This document shows, piece after piece, positions 321-31,752 of a stretch of DNA of 33,145 nt. Made by a program: the position numbers and the translations under genes. The notes below the pieces were generated by a model. The model ran no database searches, was not told the DNA's origin, and was given only the letters and a program-made list of their open reading frames with translations. Source of the DNA: Verrucomicrobiota bacterium (lineage in GTDB: Bacteria; Verrucomicrobiota; Verrucomicrobiia; Limisphaerales; J093); NCBI GenBank assembly GCA_012517065.1, contig JAAYVR010000248.1, positions 1 through 33,145 on the forward strand, read 5' to 3'. How positions within the stretch are numbered: the first letter of the stretch is position 1; every line of letters begins with the position of its first letter.

Positions 321-335
321 GGTGAGATTTCGGGG
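321..335 (-). repeat. Intergenic CCCGGAAATCTCACC-family repeat, copy 1
   Basis: GGTGAGATTTCGGGG is the reverse complement of the core found at 17740, 27694 and 31430. It lies 32 bases beyond the stop codon of the aldo/keto reductase gene. Like the 27743 copy, it is followed by GGCT and, some bases on, GCATG. Confidence 0.6.
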
Positions 336-7740: not shown

Positions 7741-10700
7741 ATGAAAAACCTTCGTTGGCTGCAAGTCGGCCTGGGCATCGCCCTGTTGGCGTCGATAGTT
7801 GTCTTGTTCAAACCGTCTTTGCGATCCGGTGCAACCGGTCGCGGCAATGCCGATCCGCCGGTTTCGGCCAGAAGCGTTGATTCAGCAAAGACAAACCCGC
7901 TGCTCTCAGTCGCTGCTTGTGAGCAAGGGAATTTCCCATCGCCCAAGCTTGAGACAGCGGTCAAGCCTACCGACCGCCCTGTCACTGAGAACTCTGCGCC
8001 GGAGGCGATACACGCTGAATTCGCCAACTGGGTTGGCGAGTTCCTCAGCGCAAGAGCTTCTGGAACTGCACTTCCATCGTTTGCCAAAGGCAGCCGCCTT
8101 GCCGCCGCGCGCCGCGCGGCTCTGGCGCAGGCCATCAAAGAAGACCCGCAATCGGCTTTGGAAATGGCTGTTCCGTGGCAGTGGCGCGAAGTGCTCCCGC
8201 CAGAAATCACCGCGCATTTTGAGGAGGTTGTGAGCGCGCGAGGGAACCTTGATGTTTTCTGTGCGCTGCCTCTGCCGGGGCCGGATTACCGCGAGTTCAG
8301 GCCCGGTCTGATGCGTTATGCGACTATCAATGGCCGAACTTATCAGGCTTATGTCTATGGGAAACGCGCCCGGCAAATGAGCCAGCGCAACATTGCCATC
8401 GAAGGCATTGCGGTGGACAATTTACTGGCGATTTCCGAGGAACCGGTTCGGGTGCTGGATGCGGACGAAACCCGGGCGATGACGCGGGTTGGCAAAGCGC
8501 CGGCATCTGCCAAGTGCGCTCTCTGTGGTTCCGGGCCGGTGGCGGGGCAGGATCGTCTCTTGGTTTCGCACGGCGGTCAACTTCTTGATGTGTGCTGTCT
8601 TTCGCACGCTGGCGAGTTGGGGCGCACTCTCGCCGAGGTTGAACAGCGGGGACAGATTGCGCTTGCGTCTTCCGGTGGTGATACGTTTGGAGGGAACAGT
8701 TGGTGGACCAGCCAGCCTCCCGCGAGCCTGCAGGGTTCATTTGGCACAAAACGGGTGCTTTACATGCGCGTGGTGTTTCGTGATGACATTCGCGTGCCGA
8801 TCAGCGAGGGCGAAGCAATGGCCATCATGGACGAGGTTGACGCTTTTTACAAGGAGGCCTCTTACAACAAGACTGCTTTGATAACCACTGTAACGCCGGT
8901 GCTGACGCTTCCGCATCCGAAGCTCAACTATTCGACTTTGGGGCCCGGCGCGCTCTTACAGGACGCAATGACGGAAGCGATCAAACTCGGGTACAAGACT
9001 GAGAACTACGACCAGCTTATTCTGCAGTTCACGAGTGTTCCCGGCTACGAATGGGGCGGGTTGGGCGGCGGCGGAGTGGTTTGGATACAAGGTGCAGGCG
9101 TTGGGTTGATTGTCCACGAATTGGGCCACTGTTACGGGCTCGGGCACGCCAACTTCTGGGAGACGCGCCGCCCAGTTCTGCCGACCACGCCGCAGTTGCC
9201 GTTCGACATCGACAGTCTCGTCGGGCACGACAGTATCATCGGGGTGGGAGATGACATTGAATACGGGGATATCTTTGATGTTATGGGCAGCGGCGGCGGT
9301 GAGGCCACTGCAAGGACAAACCAGATGCTCACAGCGTTTGCGGGGCACTTCAACGCAATCGGAAAAGCACAGCTTGGATGGCTCACGGAGGCTTACATCG
9401 TCAAGGTCGCAACTGACGGAACAAACCGGATATACGTCCATGACACGCCGCGGTTGGTGGAAGGCCGGAGTTACGCGCTTCGGATTGCCAAGGACGCCCA
9501 GCGGGAGTACTGGATCAGTGCAAGGACCAAGGTTCCCAATCGTTGGTTGACGAACGGCGTTGAATTGCACTGGGCTGCATGGCAACAGGCGCAAGGGTAC
9601 AGCCAGTTGCTTGATACAACGCCCGGTTCGATCCACGGCCGCCAAGACGCTGCCATAGCTGTCGGCCGGACTTACGCCGATGAAGAATCAAAGGTTTATA
9701 TCACGCCTGTTGCCAGAGGCGGATCGGGCACCAACACATGGTACGACGTGGTTGTTTTCAGGGGCGAACGAAAAGACAACCTGCCGCCAGTGGTCACACT
9801 CTCGGTCTCGACGAACAAGACCCGACCGAACCAGCCGATAACTTTGACGGCGGATGCGATCGATCCGAATGGCGATGCGATGTCTTTTTACTGGGATTTG
9901 GGAGACGACACGGCCGGGCCAAATGCGGCAAGCATTGTTAAGGATTGGGCAACGCCGGGTGATTACGTTGTGCGCTGCGAGGTCAGCGACCTTCGCGGGG
10001 GCATAACCAGCAAACACATTGTGATCAGGGTCGGCGACCCCACCACGCTCAGAGTCAGCGGTTTTGTTGTTGATAACGCAGGAATGCCACTTCGGGGTGT
10101 TCGAGTCTCGAACGGTTCATTGACGGAGGGTGAGTACGAATATGCCGAGAACTACAAGTGGACCTACACGGACAGCGACGGAGCGTTTACTTTGGTTGGC
10201 CTGACAAACGGGGATTATCACGTGGGGGCCTATATCAATGGCTACGTAACAACACCGGCCAACTTTGGAGTTCCAATTACCTTGCGGGACCGTGACGCTT
10301 CCGGACTGACGTTCATTGCAAACCCGCTCCCACGGGTCACTGCAGAAGTTGTGCAGCATGCAGACGGTCCAACGAAGAAACCCGGCATTTTCCGGCTGAA
10401 ACGGACTGGTGACACCAATACGGCGCTCCAGGCGTTTTTCCTGTTGGGCGGCTCGGCAGCCGAACGCAAGGATTACGCAAGAATCAGCAATTCAGTTGTG
10501 AATCAAACCAACGTTGTGCCCACTCCGTTCGGCCCGAACACCCTTACTTTCAAGTTCTACGCTGTGGATTTTCCGACGGGCGTGGTTGAGACGAATATTA
10601 CGATCACGCCTCTTGTAACCAACGCGCCTGCTGGACAGGACAAAGATGTCGCGCTCACGGTCATGTATCCGCTGGAGGTCATGCGGCTCGAGCTTACGAA

Positions 10701-13700
10701 TGGCGAAGGCGGGCTCCTGGCCACGAACACCAATTATGTGTTTTTCAGCGATTGGGAAATCCGCAACGTGAACGGGCAAGAAACATGGTTCCAAAATTAC
10801 ACTGACTACGTGCCATGGTGGCCCGGTGAGGCTCGTCTCAGGATCGCCGCGCAAAAGGCGACATTGCCAATTGTGTCTCTGTTGGCTTCGGCAGCCGCCA
10901 CGGAGAATGCAATTGATGCTGCGCAATTCACCGTGCTCAGGAGCGGCGTGATGGATGTTCCTGTGACGGTTCAGTTGACTGTCGAGGGGACAGCCGTGCC
11001 GGGGTCGGATTACGAGGCTCTGCCAAGCAGCGTGGTTATTCCCGCGAACGCCTCGTTTGTGACCATCCCGGTTTATGTGCGGCCCAACCTGTATCTTGAC
11101 GGCAACCGGACGGTCAAACTCAAGATCGCCGCCGACCCGGCGTATCAGGTCGGTACCGGCGAGGCCACAGTTACCATTGCCGACAACGACCTCCCACTGG
11201 TGACCATTACGGCTACGCAGCCTGTTGGCAGTGAGTCTGGCTCCGTTACCGCGGTCATGATGGTCACACGTGCGGGAGACATGACGCGCGAATTGACAGT
11301 TAACTATTTGGTTTCGGGAACTGCGGTAAGCGGCCGTGATTACCGAGCGCTGCCAGGGGCGGTAACAATTCCCGCAGGCCAGCCGTCAGCGGCGATAGTT
11401 GTTACGCCGCGCGACAATGGAATTCGCGACGGTGGCAACACCGTCCAGGTGTTCATATCGGATAGTCCGACATACAACGTCGGCTATCCCAACGCTGCCA
11501 CAGTCTTCATCCAAGACAGGGCGCTTCCCGTTGTTACAGTGAGAGCCACTGACGAAACTGCTGCCGAACCCAGTGAAACTGGCGAGTTCGTGCTCACGCG
11601 AACCGGCGACACCAGCCGCGAGTTGGAAGTGTTCATCAAGACCGGCGGCACTGCCAAACCGTTTGCGGATTACGTGTCTTTGGGCGAGCGCGTGGTGTTC
11701 CCGCGGAATGCTTCAACGGTGACACTGACAGTTGCGCCCGTGGACGATCGATTGCGTGAGGACCAGGAAACGGTGATTTTGGAAGTTCTGCCCGGACTGG
11801 ATTATTACGCAGGATCGCCGTCGCAGGCGGTGGTGACAATCAACGATGACGATTCCAGCTCGGCATTGGCTGTTGGATTCAGTTTCTTGAGTTCTACCAA
11901 CTATGAGACGCCAGGCCAGGCGCTTATCGCTGTCGCAATCACAGGCAACCCGCAAGAGGACAATCCTGTGACTGTCGATTACAAGGTCACTGGCGGAACT
12001 GCCATTCCTGACGTTGATTACCCGCTGACGAGTTCAACGGGCCGTCTGATGTTCGTTCACGGCCCGGATGGTGGCAAGGACCAGTACACCAACCGCACCC
12101 AATTGATACCTTTTGTTTACACCAATGACAGCGAGGCGAAGCCGGACAGGACTGTGGTGCTGACGCTCATAGCGCCGCCGCCGTTCATAAGCAACTGGCT
12201 CAGCACCAATGACATCACCATTACAAATGAAAGCGGCGAAACGATCACAACCAACGAGGTTGTGACCAACTCGACGTTGGTTACGATCCCGATGAACGCG
12301 TCATTTGATGTCTATCAGAGTCACACGCTGACCATACTTGACGATGACGCTTCGGTGATCACCGTTGAAGCAACGGACCCGGTGGCGTATGAGCAAGGTT
12401 TGGACCCGGCCGTGTTCACGATCAAGCGCACAGTGGTAACGAACCGCGCCCAGAAAGTCCGGTTCCAATTGTCCGGTCTTGCTGCTAATGGCAGCGATTA
12501 TCAGACCATCGAAACAACAGTTGAGATTCCGCCAGGGTGGGATTCGATTCAAATCCCTGTAATGCCGGTTGATGACCCGGTTCAGGAGTACATCGAGGAT
12601 GTCAAACTAACGCTGCTAGAGACGCCCGGCGCGCAGATTGGCGACCCGAGCGCTGCCACGGTGACCATAATTGACAACGATGGGACAGTGGAGTTTGCCC
12701 GGACTGCGTACTCTGTGCCTGAGAACGTCGGCATTGCCAACATCCCGGTTCGGCGTACTTCTGACACCAACGCGTTGGTGACAGTCGATTTCACGGTCAC
12801 CGCGGGCACCGCCGTGCCAGATGTCGATTTCGTTGTGACCAATGGTGTGCTGGTGTTCCAACCTGGGGAGACAGTCAAGAACCTCCAAGTCCCGGTCCTT
12901 GACGATCTTGTGACGGAGCCAACCAAGACAGTTAACCTGACATTGCTCAACCCCAGTGGCGGCGCAGCGTTGGGCGGCCAGACAACAGCCGTGTTGAATA
13001 TCGAGGACGACGACACTGCGGTCGAGTTTGCCGGCGCCGCATTTACAGTGTATGAGCACGAGACCAACGCCGTTGTCACTCTGCGCAGGATTGGTGTTTT
13101 GACTAACGTCGCCCAGATCACCTTCGTTGCCACCAATGGAACTGCGGTTGACGGCGTCGATTTCGTCGCCACAAATCAGACCGTTTCTTTCGTGCCGGGA
13201 CAGACCTTGACAAATGTGTTTCTGAGGGTTCTCGACAATACCTTGATAGAATCGAACAAGACGGTATTACTCACGCTGCTAACCAATGAGCTTGTGACCA
13301 CAAGTGTGGGACCGCAAGGGAACGCCACACTGACAATTGTGGAGAACGATTGCGCCATTCAATTTGCCGCGACGAATTACTCCGTCATCGAGTACGCCAA
13401 GGTTGTTAATCTCGATGTCCAGCGTATTGGCGGGACAGTTCATCCTGTGCAGGTTGATTACAGAACGGTGGACGGTACTGCAAACTCCGGCCGCGATTAC
13501 CAGAGCATTTCCGGCACGATAACATTTACGGGTGATACGAATGTGCTGGCTCTTGATGGTTCCGGCAGGCTTGTGTTCCAACCCGGTGAAACCAACAAGA
13601 CCATTCAGGTCCGCATTTTGGATGACAATCTCGGCGAGGGCGATGAGTTGTTTTTGGTTCGCCTGCAAAATCCGCGGGCTGCGGTCAATGTGCCGACGAA

Positions 13701-16383
13701 CACCGTTGTGTTGGGGCCGGTCACAAGTGCTGGAGTCACAATCATCGACGACGAAACGCCCGGGCAGGTTGATTTTGCGTTCAATCCGGGCCAGGGCGCC
13801 GATGGTCCTGTCTATGCGCTTGCATTGCAGAGCGATGGCAAGGTGGTAATCGGCGGGGCGTTTACGAGCATCGACGGAATTATTCTCAACCGCGTGGCGC
13901 GGTTGCATGAGGATGGTTATCTGGACAGTTTTCTGACGCCGGGCGAGGGGACTGACGGCGACGTTCATGCGATTGCTGTACAGCCCGACGGCCGCATTCT
14001 GATAGGCGGAGATTTCCGAAGTGTCAACGGCGTGCCAAGTATTCGGCTGGCCCGGTTGAATGCTGATGGGTCTGTACACGACGGGTTCAAACCGGGGCTT
14101 GGACCTGACGGCCGCGTCAGGGCCATCGCTGTTCAGCCCGATGGCGCGATCTTGATCGGCGGCGACTTCAATTCAGTGGTTGGCGCGCCGCGCGTTGGGA
14201 TTGCAAGGTTGACGTCAGACGGGATGGTTGATCAAACGTTTGATCCTGGTGCGGGCGCGCCCGGTGTCTATGCAATCGCGGTTCAACCTGACGGCAAGAT
14301 ACTGATCGCAGGCGCTTTCACGAGCGCGGCGGGCTCGGCGCAGCGGTACATTGCCCGGCTGAATCAGGACGGGTCGCTTGATCGCACATTCAACACGGGC
14401 GCCGGTCCGGACGGCATGGTGCGGTCAATTGCGCTTCTGGCTGACGGCCGAATCGTGATCGGCGGAGACTTTGAAACCTTCGCGGGCATATCGCGGTACG
14501 GCGTGGCCAGACTTAACGCTGACGGGTCCCTCGATACTGCCTTTGAACCGCCAACCGATGCCGACGGCGTCGTGTACGCCGTTGGGGCGCTATCCGACGG
14601 AAAGGTCATGGTTGGCGGCGCGTTTACGACGTTTGGCGGTTTGCCGCTTGCACGTTTCGCTCGGCTTAACCCGAACGGGACTGTGGACACCAGTTTCCAG
14701 ATTGGCACGGGCGCCAATGACCTTGTGCGTGCGCTGGTCGTGCAGCCTGACACGGCGGTTGTCATTGGCGGCGATTTCACAGAAGTCAACGGGCTCGACC
14801 GGAAGCGGATCGCGCGCATCCACGGCGACGAGAAGTTCCGGTTGAACACGGTCCAGTTCAGCGCGGCATTCTATCGCGCACCGGAAAACGGAACAAACGC
14901 CGTTATCACTGTCGTGCGCGGGGGCGATGTCACAACCAGCTTTGCTGTGAATTATGGGACGCGTGATGGCACCGCGATCGCAGGCAAGGATTATACAGAA
15001 ACAAACGGCTCGCTCACATTCGCCGCGGGTGAGACTGTGAAGACATTCGAGGTGCCGATTCTCGACAACCTGCTTGCCGAGGGCGACAAAACCGTCGGTT
15101 TATTCCTCACGAATATTCCGTCTGGATTCAGCCTGTCTGCAAGGTTGACGGCGACGCTGGTCATCGAAGACAACGAAAGCGCTCTGGCTTTCAGTGCGCC
15201 GACCTATACGGTGAGCGAGGGTGCTGGTGTTGCGACGATCACCGTGCGTAGGACCGGGCCGAACGCAACTGAGGCAAGCGTTGACTACGAAACGCGCGAT
15301 GACACTGCGGTTGCAGGAAAAGATTACGGGGAAACAAGAGGCACATTGTACTTCATGCCCGGCGAATCCGAAAAGAGCTTTGATGTGCCGATAATTGACA
15401 ACGACCAGATTGATCCGGACAGGAGTTTGTTTGTTGTTCTGAACAATCCAATCGGCGGGCCGGTTCTCGGGCTTCAATCGACAGCGGTTCTGACCATCAC
15501 GGATAACGACCGCGTCGAGTTCTACAGCCTTAACATTGTTCCGGCGATTGGCGGCACTGTCACGCCATCGTCCGGTTCATACAATGTTGGCACTGTGCTG
15601 TCGCTGTTCGCTGCTCCCGACAGAGATTACAAGTTCTCGGGCTGGACCGGGACGATCAACTCGGCGGCGAATCCGTTGTTTATTGTGATGGACAAGAACT
15701 ACACGCTCAAAGCCAACTTTGTGCCTGTACAGTTCACTTACACGTTCGAGCCGCCGTTTACGGCCGCGAATCTGGCATCGGCTCCATGGGTAAGCTCGAC
15801 GACCAAGCCATGGCAGCTCCAGTCGGCCACGGCTTCTGGCGGCCGGTTCGCACTCCGATCGGCCCCAATTGGCGACGGTGAAGACAGCACGCTGTCTTTG
15901 GTTGTGGTGACACGCGCCGGGGCGGGTTCGTTTGATTTCCGCGTTAGTTCAGAGGCAAACTGGGACTTCTTCGAGTTCTACGTCAACGGCGTGAAGATCG
16001 ATCGCTGGTCTGGAGACGTTCCGTGGCGATCCTACCAGTTCAACCTTGTTGCGGGCCGAAACACGCTCACATGGCGCTATGTCAAGGACAACAACTTCAG
16101 CAGCGGCCTTGACGCAGCGTTTATTGACAATCTGTTTGTGCCGCTGGATGTGCCTGACCCGACCGATCCTGCGGCCCGGTTGTCGGTGATTGATCTTCCG
16201 TCCACTGGATTCCATATTCTGCTCGAGGGACGGGCTGGCAATACTTACGTCACAGAAGTCAGCAGTGACCTTGTCGAGTGGCAGCCCATCTCAACCAACA
16301 CGCTCGGCGGCACTACAGCGATTATTACGGACCTCCAGGCGCCCGCTCGCTCGCATCGGTTCTACAGAGCGTACACGCGCTGA
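7741..16383 (+). CDS. Giant secreted metzincin-like protein with Calx-beta, delta-60 propeller and InlB-type repeats
   Basis: 2880 residues from ATG 7741 (MKNLRWLQVG then a hydrophobic span); a longer frame from 7660 overlaps pilC. Domains in order: signal sequence/anchor; pro-region with a CxxC...CC element (C259, C262, C285, C286); metzincin-type protease with HELGHCYGLGH at 459-469 and Met-turn DVMGSG at M515, resembling M6/M11 peptidases; PKD-like domain about 681-764; carboxypeptidase-regulatory-like domain about 769-840; about eight Calx-beta domains about 1040-2007 (plus a degenerate one before), many ending in xxIxDND; seven delta-60 repeats about 2009-2364 (PDGxILIGGDF); two more Calx-beta about 2367-2590; one InlB-type repeat about 2592-2664; a beta-sandwich about 2665-2803; and a C-terminal module with DLVEWQPISTN and RFYRAY. 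Expected to be exported, calcium-binding and cell-surface or released. It lies 34 nt after pilC and 33 nt before serS. Confidence 0.9.
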   Translation: MKNLRWLQVGLGIALLASIVVLFKPSLRSGATGRGNADPPVSARSVDSAKTNPLLSVAACEQGNFPSPKLETAVKPTDRPVTENSAPEAIHAEFANWVGEFLSARASGTALPSFAKGSRLAAARRAALAQAIKEDPQSALEMAVPWQWREVLPPEITAHFEEVVSARGNLDVFCALPLPGPDYREFRPGLMRYATINGRTYQAYVYGKRARQMSQRNIAIEGIAVDNLLAISEEPVRVLDADETRAMTRVGKAPASAKCALCGSGPVAGQDRLLVSHGGQLLDVCCLSHAGELGRTLAEVEQRGQIALASSGGDTFGGNSWWTSQPPASLQGSFGTKRVLYMRVVFRDDIRVPISEGEAMAIMDEVDAFYKEASYNKTALITTVTPVLTLPHPKLNYSTLGPGALLQDAMTEAIKLGYKTENYDQLILQFTSVPGYEWGGLGGGGVVWIQGAGVGLIVHELGHCYGLGHANFWETRRPVLPTTPQLPFDIDSLVGHDSIIGVGDDIEYGDIFDVMGSGGGEATARTNQMLTAFAGHFNAIGKAQLGWLTEAYIVKVATDGTNRIYVHDTPRLVEGRSYALRIAKDAQREYWISARTKVPNRWLTNGVELHWAAWQQAQGYSQLLDTTPGSIHGRQDAAIAVGRTYADEESKVYITPVARGGSGTNTWYDVVVFRGERKDNLPPVVTLSVSTNKTRPNQPITLTADAIDPNGDAMSFYWDLGDDTAGPNAASIVKDWATPGDYVVRCEVSDLRGGITSKHIVIRVGDPTTLRVSGFVVDNAGMPLRGVRVSNGSLTEGEYEYAENYKWTYTDSDGAFTLVGLTNGDYHVGAYINGYVTTPANFGVPITLRDRDASGLTFIANPLPRVTAEVVQHADGPTKKPGIFRLKRTGDTNTALQAFFLLGGSAAERKDYARISNSVVNQTNVVPTPFGPNTLTFKFYAVDFPTGVVETNITITPLVTNAPAGQDKDVALTVMYPLEVMRLELTNGEGGLLATNTNYVFFSDWEIRNVNGQETWFQNYTDYVPWWPGEARLRIAAQKATLPIVSLLASAAATENAIDAAQFTVLRSGVMDVPVTVQLTVEGTAVPGSDYEALPSSVVIPANASFVTIPVYVRPNLYLDGNRTVKLKIAADPAYQVGTGEATVTIADNDLPLVTITATQPVGSESGSVTAVMMVTRAGDMTRELTVNYLVSGTAVSGRDYRALPGAVTIPAGQPSAAIVVTPRDNGIRDGGNTVQVFISDSPTYNVGYPNAATVFIQDRALPVVTVRATDETAAEPSETGEFVLTRTGDTSRELEVFIKTGGTAKPFADYVSLGERVVFPRNASTVTLTVAPVDDRLREDQETVILEVLPGLDYYAGSPSQAVVTINDDDSSSALAVGFSFLSSTNYETPGQALIAVAITGNPQEDNPVTVDYKVTGGTAIPDVDYPLTSSTGRLMFVHGPDGGKDQYTNRTQLIPFVYTNDSEAKPDRTVVLTLIAPPPFISNWLSTNDITITNESGETITTNEVVTNSTLVTIPMNASFDVYQSHTLTILDDDASVITVEATDPVAYEQGLDPAVFTIKRTVVTNRAQKVRFQLSGLAANGSDYQTIETTVEIPPGWDSIQIPVMPVDDPVQEYIEDVKLTLLETPGAQIGDPSAATVTIIDNDGTVEFARTAYSVPENVGIANIPVRRTSDTNALVTVDFTVTAGTAVPDVDFVVTNGVLVFQPGETVKNLQVPVLDDLVTEPTKTVNLTLLNPSGGAALGGQTTAVLNIEDDDTAVEFAGAAFTVYEHETNAVVTLRRIGVLTNVAQITFVATNGTAVDGVDFVATNQTVSFVPGQTLTNVFLRVLDNTLIESNKTVLLTLLTNELVTTSVGPQGNATLTIVENDCAIQFAATNYSVIEYAKVVNLDVQRIGGTVHPVQVDYRTVDGTANSGRDYQSISGTITFTGDTNVLALDGSGRLVFQPGETNKTIQVRILDDNLGEGDELFLVRLQNPRAAVNVPTNTVVLGPVTSAGVTIIDDETPGQVDFAFNPGQGADGPVYALALQSDGKVVIGGAFTSIDGIILNRVARLHEDGYLDSFLTPGEGTDGDVHAIAVQPDGRILIGGDFRSVNGVPSIRLARLNADGSVHDGFKPGLGPDGRVRAIAVQPDGAILIGGDFNSVVGAPRVGIARLTSDGMVDQTFDPGAGAPGVYAIAVQPDGKILIAGAFTSAAGSAQRYIARLNQDGSLDRTFNTGAGPDGMVRSIALLADGRIVIGGDFETFAGISRYGVARLNADGSLDTAFEPPTDADGVVYAVGALSDGKVMVGGAFTTFGGLPLARFARLNPNGTVDTSFQIGTGANDLVRALVVQPDTAVVIGGDFTEVNGLDRKRIARIHGDEKFRLNTVQFSAAFYRAPENGTNAVITVVRGGDVTTSFAVNYGTRDGTAIAGKDYTETNGSLTFAAGETVKTFEVPILDNLLAEGDKTVGLFLTNIPSGFSLSARLTATLVIEDNESALAFSAPTYTVSEGAGVATITVRRTGPNATEASVDYETRDDTAVAGKDYGETRGTLYFMPGESEKSFDVPIIDNDQIDPDRSLFVVLNNPIGGPVLGLQSTAVLTITDNDRVEFYSLNIVPAIGGTVTPSSGSYNVGTVLSLFAAPDRDYKFSGWTGTINSAANPLFIVMDKNYTLKANFVPVQFTYTFEPPFTAANLASAPWVSSTTKPWQLQSATASGGRFALRSAPIGDGEDSTLSLVVVTRAGAGSFDFRVSSEANWDFFEFYVNGVKIDRWSGDVPWRSYQFNLVAGRNTLTWRYVKDNNFSSGLDAAFIDNLFVPLDVPDPTDPAARLSVIDLPSTGFHILLEGRAGNTYVTEVSSDLVEWQPISTNTLGGTTAIITDLQAPARSHRFYRAYTR

Positions 16384-17718: not shown

Positions 17719-17739
17719 CGGCTGAAAAAGCAGGTTGAG

Positions 17740-17815
17740 CCCGGAAATCTCACCGGAGTGAAGGCATGGCTGAATCCGATAGCTTGGCCTGACAGATTCC
17801 CGGGTCAGGCGATTG
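17740..17815 (+). repeat. Intergenic CCCGGAAATCTCACC-family repeat, copy 2
   Basis: This copy lies between the convergent 3' ends of serS and the glycogen synthase gene. It begins CCCGGAAATCTCACCGGAG and is followed by TGAAGGCATGG and, later, GGTCAGGCGATTGTGC. The copy at 31430 has the same order (CCCGGAAATCTCAC, TGAAG, GGTCAGGCGGTGATGC), so similarity extends over some 60-75 bases, not just the core. Confidence 0.65.
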
Positions 17816-21633: not shown

Positions 21634-22494
21634 ATGTTTTACTTAAAGTATTTGTTCGCAAATGTCCGGCTTGCGCTGCGATTGCTGCTTCGAGGCGAGT
21701 GGCAGCGCGTTGTGCTGGCCGTCTATGCACGTCTGTACGTGCTTTTCTACCGCATTGTTTTTCCCATTGTTCGCCCTTTTGTTCGAAATCCAAAAGGGGT
21801 GATTGACAGTCCGGGCGTCAGCGTCGAGACGGATCATCCTGTGGCAATCACATCACCCGATTATGCTGTTCCGCACGGGACACGGTACAACAACAGCACA
21901 AACCGCAAGTTCGTGCTGCTCATGCACGAACATTTCCGGAGCGTGTTTCCAGATTGCACACTGGCGTTCATGGACCTCGGGTGTTCCGGGGGGCAACTGG
22001 TCGCCGATTTCGCCTCGCTTGGCTGGGTGGCGGTCGGCTTGGAAGGGTCCGATTACTCACTCAAACACAGGCGCGCAAACTGGCGGGATTTGGCGAATCG
22101 CAATCTTTTCACCTGTGACATTAGCAAACCTTTCCGTGTTAAACGAGAGGGCCGCGATTTGCAGTTCCACCTGATCACAGCGTGGGAAGTCCTCGAGCAC
22201 ATCTCGATGCGGGACCTCGAGACTGTATTCAAGAACATAACCGAGCATTTGTTGCCGGGGGGATGTTTTGTCGCGTCAACCAGCTCGAGCACGAGCATTG
22301 TCAACGGGGTTGAGCTGCATCAAACCCGGATGCCCAACGCCGAATGGCGGTCGTGGATCGAACAGCGGTTTCCTGAGTTGGAACCGGTTGATTTGCACCT
22401 GCGCATCTATCAGCATGTCCGATTCGATTTCGGCGAACCATCCTTCCTTGCATATCGAAAGAAAGGTGGAACAGATTCCGGTACACCCCGCTAG
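21634..22494 (+). CDS. Class I SAM-dependent methyltransferase
   Basis: 286 residues from ATG 21634 (MFYLKYLFANVRLALRLLL). The frame is open from GTG 21469, overlapping the preceding stop as TAGTG, but the extra 55 residues are cysteine-rich and unlike the family. SAM-binding motif I is MDLGCSGGQLVADFASLG (about residues 113-130), followed by the acidic strand VGLEGSD. The later motif LITAWEVLEHI (about 180-190) is typical of class I enzymes acting on small molecules or glycans. The N-terminal 40 residues are basic and hydrophobic and may sit at the membrane. Substrate unknown. Likely co-transcribed with the TPR-like gene. Confidence 0.82.
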   Translation: MFYLKYLFANVRLALRLLLRGEWQRVVLAVYARLYVLFYRIVFPIVRPFVRNPKGVIDSPGVSVETDHPVAITSPDYAVPHGTRYNNSTNRKFVLLMHEHFRSVFPDCTLAFMDLGCSGGQLVADFASLGWVAVGLEGSDYSLKHRRANWRDLANRNLFTCDISKPFRVKREGRDLQFHLITAWEVLEHISMRDLETVFKNITEHLLPGGCFVASTSSSTSIVNGVELHQTRMPNAEWRSWIEQRFPELEPVDLHLRIYQHVRFDFGEPSFLAYRKKGGTDSGTPR

Positions 22495-22534
22495 CCGTGA
22501 AATCGCATCGGCTCACCGGCCGAGGACACCCACG

Positions 22535-24575: not shown

Positions 24576-24752
24576 CAGAGTGAATGACAGGCCGGGGGGA
24601 GTCAACGTTTCTGCGACTTCTTCATTTGCTACCGCCGAACAAACATCAGCACGTTATCTTGAAGTTCCGAGGAAGATTGCTCGGTTTCTCTGTATCTCCT
24701 TCTCTGACAGCCAGTAAGGCGGTCACAACGGCAGGGCCCTTGTGAGTGAGCT

Positions 24753-24930
24753 GGATAAGGTGACAGGCTCGCTGTTTGGGTGTGGCCCCCTGATTGCGGC
24801 GTGGCCAGCAAATTGCCCCTTGTTCCGATCCGCAGTTGCTGAAGTCTGCGGAGGAACTTCTCGGATGCCAACATGGGTACAGACACATTGTTTTCGGCGC
24901 CATGCCGATATGGGGACAGACACGTTGTTT
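24753..24930 (-). repeat. Dispersed REP-like repeat, copy 2, with three end motifs
   Basis: The lower strand of 24753-24869 aligns with 138-254 on the upper strand, beginning GGCATCCGAG and ending GCGAGCCTGTCACCTTAT. Two further divergent end motifs precede it on the lower strand: ACAACGTGTCTGTCCCCATA (24908-24930) and ACAATGTGTCTGTACCCATG (24871-24893). Copy 1 carries extra motifs on one side only, so the motif number and placement vary between copies. It lies in the gene-free stretch 24576-25236. Confidence 0.72.
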
Positions 24931-24945
24931 GGGCATAGAAACAAA

Positions 24946-24963
24946 GCGGCAGCAAGCTGCCGC
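24946..24963. repeat. Short perfect palindrome, REP-like
   Basis: GCGGCAGC (24946-24953) and GCTGCCGC (24956-24963) form an 8-bp perfect hairpin around AA. It sits 15 bases from the last GTGTCTGTCCCC motif. The continuation GCACTCCAAGCGCTTCGCG recalls a sequence I associate with dispersed verrucomicrobial repeats; that is memory, not a search result. Confidence 0.6.
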
Positions 24964-25068
24964 ACTCCAAGCGCTTCGCGCCTACCGACGCCCACTGCAT
25001 CCGCGACAGCGCATGAAAAACCATCGGGATCAGCGGCGCTCTTCCTTGCGACGGAGTCGCAGGGGACA

Positions 25069-25166
25069 TTTTGCAGCCCGGCTTGGGAGACAGCCACAGG
25101 GGACGCGGATGCCGGGTCACTCTGCCCGTCAGGCAACTGTGGTTCCGGTTGCGCCGGGCTGCGAAA
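25069..25166. repeat. 98-base imperfect inverted repeat
   Basis: TTTTGCAGCCCGGC (25069-25082) pairs with GCCGGGCTGCGAAA (25153-25166) at 13 of 14 positions. Inside, CCACAG can pair with CTGTGG, and TGCCGGG with CCCG...GGCA, so the whole segment can fold as one long branched hairpin. It lies 70 bases beyond the stop of the peroxiredoxin gene. No open frame here resembles a protein. It could be a small nonautonomous element, an attenuating RNA structure or a REP pair. Confidence 0.5.
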
Positions 25167-25236
25167 TATGCGGGCCAGGGTTTGCCTGGGTCGAGTTCCC
25201 GCCGCGACGGGGTTTGCTGCTCTATTGCAGGGGGCT

Positions 25237-27686: not shown

Positions 27687-27693
27687 CCGTTGG

Positions 27694-27757
27694 CCCGAAA
27701 ATCTCACCAGCCGCCCCCGGAATATGCCCATCGCTTCGATACGGTGAAATTTCCGGG
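27694..27757. repeat. Inverted pair of CCCGGAAATCTCACC-family repeats
   Basis: CCCGAAAATCTCACC (27694-27708) and GGTGAAATTTCCGGG (27743-27757) are complementary at 13 of 15 positions with a 34-base spacer, starting 8 bases after the stop of the PQQ-propeller gene. The arrangement is that of a REP pair, and in RNA it would form a stable stem at the 3' end of the transcript. No T-run follows, so an intrinsic terminator is not indicated. Confidence 0.65.
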
Positions 27758-27800
27758 CTTGGCATGCAGTGGCGCTGACATCTGTTCTGGAAGCGCAGAC

Positions 27801-31379: not shown

Positions 31380-31429
31380 AGTTGGACGGAGACTACAGAA
31401 GCAGACCTGTCGCGTCGAGTGGCAACTGA

Positions 31430-31490
31430 CCCGGAAATCTCACTGAAATGAAGCTTTGGATGTCTTGGTCTGGTCAGGCGGTGATGCTTG
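31430..31490 (+). repeat. Intergenic CCCGGAAATCTCACC-family repeat, copy 4
   Basis: It begins CCCGGAAATCTCACTGAAAT and continues with TGAAG and GGTCAGGCGGTGATGC, parallel to the copy at 17740. It lies 50 bases upstream of the aminopeptidase start on one side and runs into the first codons of the zinc-ribbon gene on the other. Confidence 0.6.
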
Positions 31491-31752
31491 CCCGAAATGC
31501 CAGGCCGACCTCCGTGTATGCCTCAATTGCGCTCGCTACAACGAGCGTGCCGCTCACCAATGTACCGAACTCCGCGCCGAGCCGGTAGCCTACAAAGATC
31601 GGGAAAATCACTGTGAGTGGTTCAGCTTCGCAGTGCGTGACTTCACACCAAGAACCGGGCCTGACCGGGCCGCAACCGCACGCGAAGCGTTCCGCAAATT
31701 GATCAGGGTGCGGAGTATGCGGGCCGAAGGCATGGAGCGCACCGTTCGCTGA
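31456..31752 (+). CDS. Small zinc-ribbon-like protein
   Basis: 98 residues from TTG 31456; a TGA lies three codons upstream in frame, so the start cannot be much earlier. TTG 31465 is an alternative. CPKC (residues 12-15) and CLNC (22-25) are followed by ARYNERAAHQC, AEPVAYKDRENHCEWF. This matches a small bacterial family, usually of unknown function, with CPxC...CxNCxxYD...QC...DKxxxNxCxxF, probably binding zinc. The remaining half is an arginine-rich helix (TAREAFRKLIRVRSMRAEG), with AREAFRKL fitting the same family. Its first codons are covered by a dispersed repeat. The stop is three bases from that of galK, convergent. Confidence 0.7.
   Translation: MDVLVWSGGDACPKCQADLRVCLNCARYNERAAHQCTELRAEPVAYKDRENHCEWFSFAVRDFTPRTGPDRAATAREAFRKLIRVRSMRAEGMERTVR

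Follow-up and report, generated by a model that had tools for sequence, protein, structure and literature searches.

REPs are described as repeats of 20-40 bp that are tagged by GTAG or CGTC at one end; those of the GTAG kind go with RAYT genes and have been reported in a verrucomicrobium, O. terrae (PMC3733652). REPINs consist of two inverted conserved sequences around a divergent spacer and form hairpins (PMC3116915 and PMC8049555), and bacterial MITEs (Correia/NEMIS, RUP, ERIC) are presented as a class with target duplication (PMC2229807). TIRYT tyrosine transposases (TIRtrons) are accompanied by moderately abundant TIR repeats, some of them self-complementary (PMC3733652).

The element described here was recognized through a conserved 15-mer in the window, i.e., the whole 33,145-nt stretch of DNA analysed. 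It is like REP/BIME sequences in forming high-copy palindromes downstream of genes, and unlike them in measuring 65 bp instead of 20-40 bp, in carrying YYRR words at both flanks with no GTAG or CGTC tag, and in that its single 15-mer end is by itself no palindrome. The first-pass annotation had classed the family as REP/BIME-type, an assignment that is supported neither by unit size nor by the GTAG/CGTC tag nor by RAYT linkage. With REPINs the element shares two inverted conserved ends, a divergent spacer, a hairpin, an intergenic location and hundreds of copies, and its singlets resemble decayed doublets (PMC3116915, PMC8049555); it differs from REPIN/RAYT systems in that no RAYT association was found, its flanking words are other than GTAG and its composites show a 4-bp duplication. 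Like the MITEs of PMC2229807, it is shorter than 200 bp, has terminal inverted repeats and no coding capacity, forms a stem-loop and is mostly intergenic, whereas no parental IS was found for it, its ends have no TA motif requirement, a duplication was seen only in the composite form, and it lies exactly adjacent to stop codons. It is like the TIRYT repeats of PMC3733652 in being moderately abundant, in part self-complementary and present in genomes with tyrosine transposases, yet it was not found flanking a tyrosine transposase, and the GGGGWSAS word is carried by the other repeat family of the window and not by the element. Judged by its organization, with two inverted conserved ends and a divergent spacer, the element has more in common with a REPIN or a MITE than with REP/BIME. 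A literature search that covered a minority of subscription papers returned no description of the exact core string or of the element family; the family appears to be new, and its kind is already known.

Core motif and anatomy of the element

The core CCCGGAAATCTCACC had five matches in the window at up to 3 mismatches; shuffled sequences averaged 1.03 and never exceeded 4 (0 of 100 reached 5). All five matches lay at the positions previously noted (321-335, 17740-17754, 27694-27708, 27743-27757, and 31430-31444). A genome-wide search with two mismatches, as the first-pass annotation had proposed, yielded 773 matches in the 5.26-Mb genome, far above the 5 obtained with the reversed pattern; at one mismatch the counts were 488 and 1, respectively. 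The core is a genome-wide family and no chance motif, and there is support for the earlier view of these repeats as an intergenic palindromic family that occurs in many copies and differs from that at position 138.

Anatomy and context were determined in a 737-kb sample of the same genome (40 stretches plus the window), which was picked partly from contigs known to carry matches, so that any copy density extrapolated from it would be biased upwards. Among inward-facing core pairs, 42 of 50 close pairs shared one spacing, 50 bases start to start. The unit is ~65 bp long and consists of CCCGGAAATCTCACC, a non-coding interior of 34-35 nt, and GGTGAGATTTCCGGG, the two ends forming 15-bp terminal inverted repeats; CCCGGAAATCTCACC is thus one terminal inverted repeat of this element and no free-standing REP unit. 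A profile built from full copies detected 86 loci at E < 1e-3, of which 65 are 65 bp long. Two interiors occur in the genus, A (GGAATGAAGCTTTGGGTGTCTTGGTCTGGTCAGGC) and B (GGAGTGAAGGCACGGGCGAATCCGAGGGGGTGAGC). A second module of ~70 bp (CCCGCATATT...AATATGCGGG), whose copies are nearly identical to one another, frequently adjoins the left end of the element, which it joins at CGGG/CCCG, and we refer to this arrangement as the composite form. Outside CCCGG the flank reads Y-Y-R-R on both sides (110 ends), mostly as CTAG, CTAA, TTAG, or CTGG and also as TTGA; elements below 25-38 bits (thresholds vary among analyses) or near the end of a stretch were excluded from the flank and context counts.

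Copies in the window

The element-related features of the window are as follows.

321..335, minus strand: lone element end with 1 mismatch, adjoining copies of the other repeat family
17740..17804, plus strand: full element with a B-type interior; core exact at the left end (17740-17754) and degenerate at the right end (~17790-17804)
22491..22532, minus strand: weak candidate for a partial relic of the element, matched by the profile at E 0.0032 (model positions 34-75)
27694..27757, minus strand: full element with one mismatch in each end, matched by the profile at 27690-27761 (E 2.4e-10)
31430..31484, plus strand: truncated element with interior type A; core (31430-31444) with 1 mismatch, right end unrecognisable

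The element at 17740-17804 (profile match 17736-17809, E 1.9e-12; flanks TGAG and TCAG), whose right end had been overlooked, lies between convergent genes, with serS ending 21 bp to its left and a glycosyltransferase gene ending 24 bp to its right. At the corresponding site G001, a genome of the same genus with ~90% DNA identity, holds a different repeat mosaic. The cores at 27694-27708 (plus strand) and 27743-27757 (minus strand), with one mismatch each, had been taken for two head-to-head copies; because the core is one end of a ~65-bp inverted-repeat element, they are the two ends of a single one, which lies 7 bp beyond the stop codon of a PQQ/BamB-like gene and has a diverged counterpart in G001. 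The truncated element (profile match 31426-31484, E 2.6e-16, model positions 3-61 of 77) is common to the window and G001 and continues into a small cysteine-containing ORF; a peptidase M29 gene has its 5' end 50 bp away. An aldo/keto reductase gene ends (3' end) ~31 bp from the lone end at 321-335, for which no partner was seen in the window, and the site at 22491-22532 coincides with a replacement breakpoint relative to G001. The gene ends meant in the earlier statement that most copies lie near a gene end are mostly 3' ends; at 31430 the neighbouring end is a 5' end.

Several other features of the window were recorded. The small ORF (98 aa, 31456-31752) carries a CPKC motif, is common to G001 and has no Pfam or NCBIfam match; its start codon would fall within the truncated element, and it is possible that element sequence serves as its gene start. 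The other repeat family (GGTGACAGGCTCGTTGTTT, GGGGACAG...), at 135-295 and 24755-25180, is very abundant, BLAST against the 737-kb sample returning 124 and 48 pieces, and contains a GGGGWSAS-like word that is reported in some tyrosine transposase TIRs (PMC3733652). A 572-bp repeat mosaic occupies 24614-25187; in its place G001 carries one 65-bp A-type element flanked by short sequences. Across the whole window the only Rfam match above the gathering score was a group II intron (62-136, 43.9 bits; its 3' part, at the window edge), and the element was unmatched. A very long ORF with internal repeats extends from 7741 to 16383, and these repeats are reminiscent of Calx-beta motifs.

Gene context

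Genes were predicted with a simple home-made caller (531 genes, 82.6% coding in the 737-kb sample), on which the stop-codon count below depends. Cores with up to 2 mismatches lay wholly outside predicted genes in 111 of 117 cases, partly inside in 3 and inside in 3, in line with the earlier statement that they lie outside or at the edge of genes and far from the equal density inside genes that was to have counted against the family. None of 77 elements was wholly inside a gene, and 5 partly overlapped a gene call, one of them by 85%. Enrichment at gene 3' ends, which had been proposed as a check, was evident at the element border itself: of 77 facing 3' ends, 15 were at distance 0 and none at 1-3 bp, and therefore the border word TRR is the stop codon; by comparison, 0 of 67 facing 5' ends were at distance 0. 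Among 67 classified copies, 21 lay between convergent and 16 between divergent genes; since convergent space makes up 19,036 of 101,736 intergenic bases, the former are somewhat over-represented.

At L080 and L074 comparison with G001 shows a stop position that is native and not made by the insert: the proteins end in ...KSES* compared with ...KSGP* in G001 at L080 and in ...KATA* compared with ...KAAA* at L074. By eye, G001 also has the aligned stop triplet in position at two further loci, L054:3609 and L075:9451. L069 is an exception to the native stop position, by one residue, and at L061 G001 likewise has the element's left end.

Presence and distribution among relatives

When 77 scored elements were compared with G001, the alignment spanned 10 of them; another 9 fell in gaps between two aligned flanks, 26 had one aligned flank, and 32 lacked synteny, a count limited to the sequence stretches compared. 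Looser criteria and more sequence gave 12 spanned, 9 gaps, 68 with one flank and 20 with none among 109 elements, and in the reverse direction the 86 G001 elements were divided into 9, 3, 45, and 29, respectively. At many gap sites, including 17740 and 24614-25187 of the window, the other genome holds another repeat mosaic. The insert lies between equal 4-bp words at L080:7571, L054:3609, L074:4346, and L115:4743 of G001, where the other genome has a single related word, and the first of these is a clean insertion of a single unit; with the ambiguous sites L192:741, L144:1028, L176:1031, and L054:7949, equal words were thus seen at 4 of 8 insertion sites. Separately, a 733-bp insertion relative to G001 was noted at L067 (12376-13108); an element forms one of its borders, and a second, degenerate one lies within it.

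G001 contains 351 cores, two genomes of a sister genus contain 84 and 20, and the other relatives contain 0 to 5. Of 293 genomes examined from the order, four carry exact end pairs around any interior of 28-40 nt, with 47, 34, 23, and 2 copies; the control gave 0. Viral contigs gave 0 matches to the end pairs, and a virus was accordingly discarded as vector. The sister-genus copies (14) have the same ends around a 34-nt interior that is unrelated by eye, which we read as an indication that the ends alone may be under constraint. Their left flank CTAA is conserved, and the right word is constant, mostly TCTG-like, and no copy of the left. At the one sister-genus locus tried for an insertion site, usable synteny between the two genomes was absent.

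Target duplication

Flank words were equal in 9 of 16 composites, whereas shuffling the pairs predicts 4.74 (p 0.0037), and mean flank identity was 3.38 versus 2.87; two putative right-hand composites were set aside. For 134 single copies, some of which resemble composites with a mutated junction, equal flanks numbered 2/40, 2/39, and 2/55 in the three score classes against 1.3, 0.9, and 2.4 expected, i.e., there was no excess in any class. A 4-bp duplication is therefore supported for the composite form only, and the reading of a duplication at every copy is rejected by this test as far as single copies are concerned. Because the right word in the sister genus is constant instead of repeating the left one, an HUH-type mechanism may also apply. 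YTAR targets are IS5/IS701-like; a literature search on this point found nothing, and for that reason no IS family is claimed for the element.

Search for the mobilising enzyme

None of 22 DDE_Tnp_1 loci in four genomes had such ends, a result that applies to this transposase family only, and no long inward pairs of unpaired ends occurred in 0.92 + 1.09 Mb (~2.0 Mb of the genus). Two candidate autonomous parents were rejected: on C112 both ends of the inward pair belong to separate 65-bp elements, and on C55 the left end belongs to a 65-bp element of its own. Y1 matches in the own genome number 8, and a single one scores above the NCBIfam RAYT cut-off; two of the 8 loci hold an element, several hundred bases away, and the best RAYT has another repeat in its flanks. 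None of 24 RAYT-like matches in four genomes, drafts in which a RAYT gene may have gone unassembled, was flanked by an intact element, and a RAYT partner was rejected on this basis. The only core (up to 3 mismatches) within the 70,029 bp of their flanks is a degenerate copy ~250 bp from a broken RAYT relic in G001. RAYT genes at L262 and L263 (own genome, G002) are flanked by other palindromic repeats, of the GGACGGCCGCGCTCC and GGTGTCCAGCCTTCAGGCTGC types, which are candidates for the true REP partners of those RAYTs.

Hairpin structure

Manually typed consensus sequences folded into a long stable hairpin (-33 to -43 kcal/mol). In 111 non-composite copies (18 composites excluded) 1305 stem cells were paired compared with 1293 (sd 7.3) for shuffled partners (p 0.07); the lower-scoring, older classes gave p 0.57 and 0.34 and the 22 best-scoring copies p 0.011, and no compensatory change was shown in older stems. 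Because stem pairing is barely above shuffle, the copies seem to decay freely, which speaks against a maintained RNA function; selection on RNA structure, considered as a candidate, found little support in this test.

Discussion

Copies of the element are interspersed between genes, differ in presence among close relatives, and carry a YYRR word at their flanks. We consider it probable (roughly 60%) that the element is a non-autonomous mobile hairpin of MITE/REPIN-like kind which is served by a transposase in trans and whose survivors stand at stop codons. The enzyme would recognise the element ends and use YYRR words as insertion targets, duplicating 4 bp of target in the case of the composite form. 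Since many YYRR words include TAA, TAG, or TGA, insertion behind a gene's own stop codon would leave the gene whole; insertions within genes would be purged by selection, and survivors would therefore accumulate exactly behind stop codons, where the copies would decay and not be kept as structures. This reading is favoured by the fixed spacing and boundaries, by the 773 matches versus 5, by the sister-genus ends and the full end pairs in four genomes of the order, by presence and absence between relatives with equal 4-bp words at four sites, by the composite flanks, by the absence of elements wholly inside genes, by the 15 of 77 facing 3' ends at distance 0, and by the native stop positions at L080 and L074. 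It is opposed by the lack of any mobilising gene found, by single copies without duplication, by the constant right flank of the sister genus, by the four ambiguous insertion sites, and by the dependence of the stop-codon count on a home-made gene caller. A stronger version, in which the YTRR target doubles as a stop-codon word so that the stop is kept or regenerated on insertion, and the system is tuned to gene 3' edges by an enzyme reading one end sequence in two genera around any interior, is offered tentatively, with the odds against it.

Some of the opposing observations would be expected if the copies were a REPIN population propagated by a RAYT or another Y1 (HUH) transposase, with the left YYRR as target, the right word belonging to the element and no duplication. 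The single copies without duplication and the sister-genus flanks (left CTAA conserved, right TCTG-like word constant) agree with this, as do the Y1 genes of the own genome and the hairpin of two inverted conserved sequences with divergent spacer, which is that of REPINs (PMC3116915 and PMC8049555). However, composites have equal flanks, the 70,029 bp around 24 RAYT-like matches contain a single core, next to a broken relic, and just 2 of 8 Y1 loci have an element, several hundred bases off, the best RAYT being accompanied by another repeat; we therefore regard this explanation as rather doubtful. A structure maintained by the host at gene 3' ends (terminator or mRNA stabiliser) and spread by duplication would account for the stable hairpin, the adjacency to stop codons and the 21 of 67 copies in convergent space (19,036 of 101,736 intergenic bases), yet it is improbable given stem positions that hardly covary (p 0.07; 0.57 and 0.34 in older classes), 16 of 67 copies between divergent genes, no Rfam match, and the gain and loss of copies between relatives. 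We assign even less weight to a by-product of recombination among intergenic repeats with common CCCG/CGGG words and no mobile unit: the two relatives do hold different mosaics at 17740 and 24614-25187, the second module does join at CGGG/CCCG, and other abundant repeat families share the intergenic space, but the fixed boundaries, the clean single-unit insertion at L080:7571 and a sister genus that keeps the ends with the interior replaced make it very unlikely.

The family is real, abundant, and lineage-restricted, and its likeliest identity is that of a non-autonomous mobile hairpin whose copies persist at the 3' edges of genes since the target word leaves stop codons in place. An uncultured Verrucomicrobiota lineage thus carries hundreds of copies of a probable mobile hairpin for which no description was found, and palindromes at gene ends should not be assumed to be terminators or REPs. 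Insertion at YTRR that preserves stop codons would be a testable rule for how small transposons may crowd gene 3' ends while leaving genes unbroken.
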